DNA of 47,375 nt from an uncultured Bacilli bacterium (GTDB taxonomy: Bacteria; Bacillota_I; Bacilli_A; RF39; UBA660), in the NCBI GenBank assembly GCA_944332635.1, contig CALVKI010000046.1, positions 1-47,375 on the forward strand, written 5' to 3'. The notes beneath the pieces were generated by a model. That model did no database searches. It was not told where the DNA came from and saw only the letters and a program-made list of their open reading frames with translations. Shown piece after piece: positions 38,406 through 39,572 of this stretch (positions within the stretch are counted from its first letter, which is position 1; every line of letters starts with the position of its first letter). The translations under genes were made by a program, and so were the position numbers.

Positions 38406-38467
38406 TTTTTTCACCACTAGTAACATTATAGCAAAATTTAATATTATTTCATAGTAAAACAGTAATT

Positions 38468-39472
38468 TTATGTATGCAAAAATGTTATTTTTTTATGTAT
38501 AATGTATAATAACTCTTTCTTTTTATTTAATAGGTTCATAAAATTTATTTTGAATTCACTTTTTGTTTTCAAGATTGTATAAGTGCTTTTTTTTCTTTTA
38601 GTTATCTTACTAAAGGATATTGCTAGTTTTTCGATAGGGATAAATAAATTGGCTTGTTTTTTATATGTATTTAATACAGAATTCATTAAAGTTATATAGG
38701 AGTTAGTTTCTGTTTCTAATTTGATAGTAATTATGTCTTTTGGAATGATATTATTTGCATATTTTATATATAAATATATTTTTTTTGTATAAAGACCGTT
38801 TTCTCTAAGCTTTAAAATATTAAAATCTAATAAATTTACTAATTCCTGTTGGCTTTCTTTTCTTGTTTTAATGGTTTTAAAGTTTGTACAAGCAGAAACT
38901 GTTCTTGGAATATTATTTTCTTTTAATTCTTTTAATGTAGTACTTTCTATTCCTAGAGAATGATTAATTAAATATTCAGCATTATATCCAAATTCTTCAT
39001 AAAGTTTTTTGTATGAATAATTTCTAATGTCTTCCATAGTGCATATTTTTAGTTTTTTTAGTTTTAACATCATGCTGTTACTAATCTGCCAAAAGTCGCT
39101 TAATGGTTTGTATGTCGAGCAAGTTAAAATGTATTTTTTTTCGTCTAAATATGCAATTTCTAGTTTTTTTATATTGGTTATGATATCACATGCTGTTTTT
39201 GCTAGGAATAGATTGGTACCTACTCCTATTTTTACTTTTAAATGATATTTATTTTTTAAGTTTTCTTTTATATTGTTTGCTAATTGGTATGTAGATTTTT
39301 TGTATAATTCTTCATAGTTTGTAATATCTATAAAGTATTCTTTGTTATTATACATAAAAATATCTTCATAAAAAAACATATCTGTAAGTTCTTCATATAA
39401 TTCTTCTTCTAGTTTTTTATTTATAGTAGCTTTTTCAGATTTGATTTGTAGTACTAAGTATTTTTTTTTCAT
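38468..39472 (-). CDS. Y-family DNA polymerase homologue lacking catalytic aspartates, 334 aa
   Basis: The palm's second half, thumb and little finger align with UvrX/PolY-type polymerases: KIGVGTNLFLAKTACD, PLSDFWQISN, then YKKLYEEFGYNAEYLINHSLGIE. The N-terminus VLQIKS stands where polymerases have (V/I)D.K(S/A): Q9 replaces the first metal Asp. MYNNKEYFIDIT stands where YSIDES(F/V)(I/L)D is expected: K44 replaces the second Asp, while E45 and D49 remain. About 60 residues between these motifs (most of the fingers) are missing. It is probably not a polymerase. The frame is intact, with GGGAGG before ATG 39472. Confidence 0.8.
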   Translation of the reverse strand: MKKKYLVLQIKSEKATINKKLEEELYEELTDMFFYEDIFMYNNKEYFIDITNYEELYKKSTYQLANNIKENLKNKYHLKVKIGVGTNLFLAKTACDIITNIKKLEIAYLDEKKYILTCSTYKPLSDFWQISNSMMLKLKKLKICTMEDIRNYSYKKLYEEFGYNAEYLINHSLGIESTTLKELKENNIPRTVSACTNFKTIKTRKESQQELVNLLDFNILKLRENGLYTKKIYLYIKYANNIIPKDIITIKLETETNSYITLMNSVLNTYKKQANLFIPIEKLAISFSKITKRKKSTYTILKTKSEFKINFMNLLNKKKELLYIIHKKITFLHT

Positions 39473-39502
39473 ATTTTTTCCTCCCTTTTATTATCTGTTT
39501 CT

Positions 39503-39532
39503 ATTATAGTACAATTGTTCGACCGAAAACAA
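39503..39532 (-). promoter_or_regulatory. Promoter of the Y-family homologue
   Basis: On the minus strand TTGTTT (39532-39527) and TATAAT (39508-39503) are 18 bases apart. The gene starts 31 bases after the -10 box. Confidence 0.6.
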
Positions 39533-39540
39533 TCGAACAA
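39515..39540. promoter_or_regulatory. Perfect inverted repeat over the -35 and spacer region
   Basis: TTGTTCGA (39515-39522) and TCGAACAA (39533-39540) are perfect complements with a 10-base spacer, covering the -35 box of the Y-family homologue. On the minus strand CGAACAATTGTAC also comes close to the Gram-positive LexA site (CGAAC....GTTCG), with mismatches. It is a candidate operator. Confidence 0.55.
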
Positions 39541-39572
39541 ATAAAAAAACTCGAAAAAAATTTCGAGAAAAT

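Follow-up and report, generated by a model that had tools for sequence, protein, structure and literature searches.

UvrX-type polymerases are the gram-positive counterparts of Pol V, and ImuB is a dead Y-family subunit that is made upon DNA damage and organizes an active polymerase. The inactive Y-family proteins known so far are mostly components of DnaE2 mutasomes. According to the main texts of published surveys (PMC6511836, PMC12926913), the inactive PolY groups (ImuB1, ImuB2, scDinB2-like, gbDinB2-like and the Kyrpidia type) are associated with DnaE2, every PolY group but DinP has clamp motifs, and most groups, active and inactive, have RecA-NT motifs. Ungrouped inactive members, which are 'dispersed or form diffuse groups', were also reported, and the main texts of these papers describe no protein that is without fingers and without both docking motifs; single proteins of this type may sit unnamed in the data of those surveys.

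Here, we analyzed a 47,375-nucleotide stretch of DNA (the window) that encodes a short Y-family protein. This protein shares with UvrX the palm, thumb and little finger and a LexA-type control, and the UvrX branch is its direct ancestor branch. However, UvrX has the catalytic Asp residues, the fingers, the QLxLF clamp motif, a recognizable RecA-NT motif and the conserved YolD-binding GGHNAE tail, none of which was found in the short protein. ImuB is likewise a non-catalytic Y-family protein under LexA-type control (here inferred from the box), which makes it a functional analogue and the nearest model for how the short protein may work. Unlike ImuB, the short protein has its fingers deleted, and its tail of ~40 residues leaves no room for an ImuB-C domain; because DnaE2 was not found across the genus and the clamp and RecA-NT motifs were not detectable, ImuB serves as an analogy and not as a class to which the short protein belongs. 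The other inactive PolY proteins also have a disrupted active site and diverge faster, but the surveys' main texts tie them to DnaE2 and report that they keep RecA-NT (PMC6511836, PMC12926913). Finally, the YqjH-type PolY of the same genomes (~408 aa) has the Y-family fold but, unlike the short protein, has intact active-site motifs, a QMTLF clamp motif and a KFGKS RecA-NT-like tail.

Fold and catalytic centre of the short protein

The minus-strand reading frame is intact and starts with ATG (Table 1). Its product scored above Pfam's cut-offs for both IMS and IMS_C, with the IMS match confined to the C-terminal half of that profile (positions 76-148 of 148), and NCBIfam PolIV models matched it from profile position ~103 onward. 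Identity to family relatives was ~31% over the common part. An AlphaFold2 model based on a 14-row genus alignment had a pLDDT of 79, and a Foldseek search with this model ranked Rev1 and Dpo4 first (E 2.5e-20; TM 0.4-0.45); the low global TM values probably reflect a different domain orientation in the model. Homology of the palm, thumb and little finger in the Pfam and Foldseek results thus places the protein within the Y-family fold. Together with an alignment to UvrX-type relatives, these results confirmed the claim of an earlier note that the intact 334-residue frame aligns with UvrX/PolY, and they supplied the comparison of predicted and known polymerase structures that it had proposed.

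Table 1. Features of the short Y-family locus and their positions in the window
Feature	Position	Strand	Basis or conservation
Short non-catalytic Y-family protein CDS (334 aa)	38468..39472	-	ORF, Pfam, PolIV models, AlphaFold2, Foldseek
Codon 9 (Gln), site of first metal-binding Asp	39446..39448	-	never Asp in 15 genomes
Codon 44 (Lys), site of SIDE-motif Asp	39341..39343	-	Asp in 32/32 UvrX, never in 15 genomes
Codons 131-133, Ser-x-Ser for thumb helix-hairpin-helix Gly-x-Gly	39074..39082	-	15/15 copies
Codons 281-282, Glu-Lys in little finger	38627..38632	-	invariant 15/15; UvrX Arg/Lys-Arg/Lys
C-terminal hexapeptide ITFLHT	38471..38488	-	[MILV]-[TSNPA]-[FVIY]-L-[HNQR]-[TILS]-COOH in 15/15
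Ribosome-binding site GGGAGG	39480..39485	-	read from sequence; conserved
-10 hexamer TATAAT, abuts LexA-type box	39503..39508	-	sequence, alignment of copies
LexA-type box CGAACAATTGTAC in promoter spacer	39509..39521	-	genome-wide motif sites, conservation
Likely -35 hexamer TTGTTT	39527..39532	-	sequence; consensus promoter scan did not report it
Invariant TGTTCGATTG element	39530..39539	-	conserved in all aligned copies
Intrinsic terminator between murC and short gene, parting transcription units	39550..39567	-	fold -7.4 kcal/mol, z -2.65
Extended -10 (TGCTATAAT) of separate mutS promoter in gap	38425..38433	-	conserved; promoter scan

For the residue comparison, we aligned 15 copies of the protein from the genus to 32 UvrX-type relatives. 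Asp was found at neither catalytic position in any of the 15 copies: position 9 was Gln in ten, Lys in three, Asn in one and Glu in one, and position 44 was Lys in five, Asn in four, Glu in two and Arg, Gly, Thr or Cys in one each. The conserved feature is the absence of Asp, not Q9 or K44 themselves. The earlier reading of the first metal Asp as Gln and the SIDE Asp as Lys was therefore right for the window, and its suggestion that these residues and the fingers deletion might be conserved in a clade held for the loss of Asp and the short form, but not for the identities of the replacing residues. The first 15 residues are the weakest-aligned part, and a global profile alignment gives them another, ambiguous register; the register with Q9 is favoured by a predicted strand at residues 5-12 of the AlphaFold2 model and by the likeness of KKYLVLQIKSEKA to KIYLCIDLKTFYA.

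The Asp-to-Asp span was 35 residues in the short protein versus 98 in a UvrX-type relative (L008), and in this alignment the fingers are short by 63 residues, close to the ~60 estimated previously. A tblastn search found no separate fingers segment within the window, and only 121 bp separate murC from the gene. This ruled out fingers concealed upstream of the gene or at another place in the window, as well as an upstream start that would restore them. Because two-metal catalysis requires both of the absent Asp residues, the polymerase reaction is excluded, and the proposal that this is a non-polymerase is backed by 15 of 15 genus copies that lack both residues and are kept as a clade under purifying selection; none of these copies has the normal catalytic Asp residues.

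Distribution, descent and selection across the genus

The genus was represented by 16 species genomes, and all those with a stated origin are metagenome-assembled. Fifteen of them carry the short gene, with 14 copies found using the IMS model and the fifteenth (G300) using a profile. The sixteenth genome, G291, had neither the short gene nor a mutS match, and the locus is probably missing from that assembly. Gene order (murC, short gene, mutS) was the same in 14 of 14 loci compared, i.e., the window and 13 others, and protein identity among the genus copies was as low as 56%. In a search of 385 genomes of the order, the genus copies scored 548-576 bits, versus 213 bits or less for all other matches, which had frames of at least 418 aa. 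A family search (291 genomes) agreed with this result: the few shorter frames were cut at contig ends or came from this genus, and the best matches outside the genus were full length. A 307-aa frame in G169 was considered as a second short form in the family and rejected, since it is cut by a contig end. We also rejected a viral short form; none was found in viral contigs, and the two best phage matches were full-length with SIDE intact.

In the gene tree, the 15 copies grouped as a single clade (SH-aLRT 100), with a stem of 2.16 substitutions per site, within a branch that is labelled UvrX for its likeness to published UvrX tails (RecA-NT, GGHN) rather than for its place in a tree that includes B. 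subtilis UvrX. Pairwise dN/dS of the short gene was 0.08-0.16, near that of active uvrX in the same genomes (0.085-0.109) and above that of the YqjH-type gene (0.04-0.07) and of murC, mutS, nusB and xseA (~0.01-0.07); by this measure its rate of evolution exceeds that of the neighbouring genes 2-5 times. Several pairs had dS above 1, and the low-dS pairs weigh most (window/G269, dS 0.37, ratio 0.087; G302/G293, dS 0.64, ratio 0.135). Isolated decay was rejected, given retention in 15 of 16 genomes with these ratios. The gene is not a lone copy mutated under relaxed selection, and the earlier view that it is not decayed was upheld by the open frame in 15 species, the dN/dS values across relatives and the conserved promoter and ribosome site. 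In the history that we propose, a UvrX-type translesion polymerase would have lost both metal-binding Asp residues, the fingers and its clamp, RecA and YolD docking signals once, on the genus stem.

Promoter and LexA-type box

The promoter and ribosome site claimed in the earlier note were found again (GGGAGG, TATAAT and the likely TTGTTT) and are conserved. The LexA-type box, the gene order across the genus and the conserved C-terminal peptide were not part of that note. We read the promoter from sequence and conservation, and it was not among the promoters reported by a simple scan; its -35/-10 spacer is 18 in the window and 17 in several relatives. CGAAC-N4-GTA is kept in every aligned copy, as is TGTTCGATTG upstream of the box, and the two elements form an outward-facing repeat, TTGTTCG-N-CGAACAA.

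The motif CGAACAAWTGTWY occurs only four times in this genome, before recA, uvrA, lexA and the short Y-family gene. In seven further genomes, it occurred 35 times versus 0 for a reversed control, and 21 of the 30 sites examined there precede recA (six), lexA (five), uvrA (four) or the short gene (six). The remaining nine lie elsewhere, at least four of them at TnpB-like elements. The genome encodes a LexA protein, and the right half of the box before the short gene is imperfect (GTAC, not GTTC), as is that of lexA's own box (GTAT). A B. subtilis-style CGAAC-N4-GTTYG search gave no site in the genome; the lineage's operator, as read from these sites, is therefore a variant of the B. subtilis type, and the local pattern was used. 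The predicted LexA-type operator over the promoter, with a motif common to recA, uvrA and lexA, suggests that the short gene is under SOS-type (LexA) control. Upon DNA damage, LexA would be cleaved and the short protein would be made together with RecA and UvrA.

TnpB-like genes (IS200/IS605 type, by eye) in L166, L172, L159 and L175, from several genomes of the genus, have CGAACAAATGTAT ~40 bp upstream, and the element itself may bring this LexA-like box with it. Furthermore, a small ORF (L100:1467-1721; 60-84 aa, with one hydrophobic stretch) lies divergent from lexA and before polA, just downstream of lexA's LexA-type box, and is conserved in other genus genomes. Its position makes it a candidate for an SOS-induced membrane peptide, with a likeness to YneA only in where it lies.

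Possible partners and roles

The short protein retains the palm GxGTN..LAK stretch (with K92 in 14 of 15 copies), D49, the thumb FG.NAE.LI.H..G region and the little-finger strands. It is basic (pI 9.1-9.7) and has a Lys-rich tail. Position 281 is Glu in all 15 genus copies versus Arg or Lys in 32 of 32 UvrX proteins; in our own alignment to Dpo4, this replacement presumably falls at the position beside R332. In Dpo4, R332 has a lesion-reading role (PMC7641752). With a RecA-NT profile of UvrX tails, real RecA scored 41 and most genus copies scored no better than shuffles, and we therefore rejected a RecA-NT in the tail; in G300 and G294, the C-terminal peptide lies at the RecA-NT strand register, not significantly. 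This hexapeptide (MTFLHT type) follows a hypervariable Lys-rich linker, and its Leu is invariant in 15 of 15 copies. Four copies read QM[TSN][FY]L there, comparable to the YqjH-type QMTLF, but as a clamp motif the peptide is a weak candidate because the Gln is not conserved.

Across the genus, uvrX is patchy and the short gene nearly universal. A uvrX gene (~495 aa) was found in 11 other genus genomes, and none was found in G269, G174 and G040, each of which is >90% complete and carries the short gene; UvrX is therefore disfavoured as an obligate partner. A YqjH-type gene was found in 14 of the 16 genomes, and only one PolC and one DnaE were found across the genus. Given that UvrX is not obligate and that the docking motifs are missing, we favour an SOS accessory that would make protein contacts with a partner present throughout.

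Loss of the catalytic centre, a single origin, purifying selection, a fixed locus and a LexA-type promoter are established at the level of sequence. A dead paralogue under SOS regulation is well supported, and the choice of its partner is what we infer. With middling confidence, we propose a genus-specific, SOS-regulated, non-catalytic Y-family accessory that acts by protein contacts. Its palm-thumb-little-finger platform and conserved C-terminal peptide would act on the damage response through such contacts, most plausibly by steering or restraining an always-present polymerase (the YqjH-type PolY, or DnaE/PolC), in a role that would resemble that of ImuB in other bacteria, with different contacts.

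The main rival is a DNA-end or template decoy, in which the thumb and little finger would hold a lesion-bearing primer-template without extension and block or protect it. Both domains are still present, with a predicted fold, and the charge of the protein, its Lys-rich tail and the kept palm stretch agree with such a role. However, the hairpin glycines of the thumb are invariant serines (131 and 133), the invariant E281 replaces a basic little-finger residue (presumably beside Dpo4 R332 in our alignment) and the QLxLF motif is gone. The earlier suggestion of a clamp-binding or template-binding decoy is weakened by this loss of contact residues, and we consider it somewhat unlikely. A true ImuB-like mutasome subunit that links a DnaE-type polymerase to RecA or the clamp would share with ImuB a dead Y-family protein under LexA-type control, and the register of the peptide in G300 and G294 would suit it, although not significantly. 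Against this, only one PolC and one DnaE and no DnaE2 were found across the genus, most copies lack a RecA-NT score above shuffles and the QxxLF motif is missing, whereas in the surveys' main texts RecA-NT is kept by the inactive PolYs of DnaE2 systems (PMC6511836, PMC12926913), which leaves such a subunit unlikely. A slowly decaying, pseudogene-like remnant kept by chance would account for the higher dN/dS relative to the neighbours and the many functional sites lost, but it is strongly disfavoured and very improbable in view of open frames in 15 species that diverge to 56% identity at dN/dS of 0.08-0.16, and of a promoter, box, ribosome site and C-terminal peptide that are all conserved.

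An SOS accessory acting by protein contacts could, more tentatively, represent a new class of SOS effector: a Y-family fold without catalysis, fingers or known docking motifs that would work, in bacteria lacking DnaE2, via a new interface made of the little finger and the conserved C-terminal peptide. The short protein occurs in a lineage with PolC and DnaE, has lost the recognized docking motifs and has been kept genus-long under an SOS-type promoter. If the proposal is true, a Y-family fold can contribute to the damage response through an undescribed interface, and the protein is a natural test case for the function of a polymerase fold that does not polymerize.

The neighbouring mutS gene raises the alternative of a mismatch-repair modulator that works with MutS. 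The pair is fixed in 14 of 14 loci, with a gap of ~40-60 bp, and no terminator was found between the two genes in the window. However, the gap holds a separate, conserved extended -10 promoter for mutS, which need not depend on the short-gene promoter, mutS in sister genera stands without a short Y-family gene, and gene order alone may reflect a frozen neighbourhood; we regard this alternative as quite unlikely. The first codon of the longest mutS ORF, at 38426, falls within the gene's own -10 hexamer, and the ATG that opens MKRSEVQ, at ~38405, is probably the conserved mutS start.
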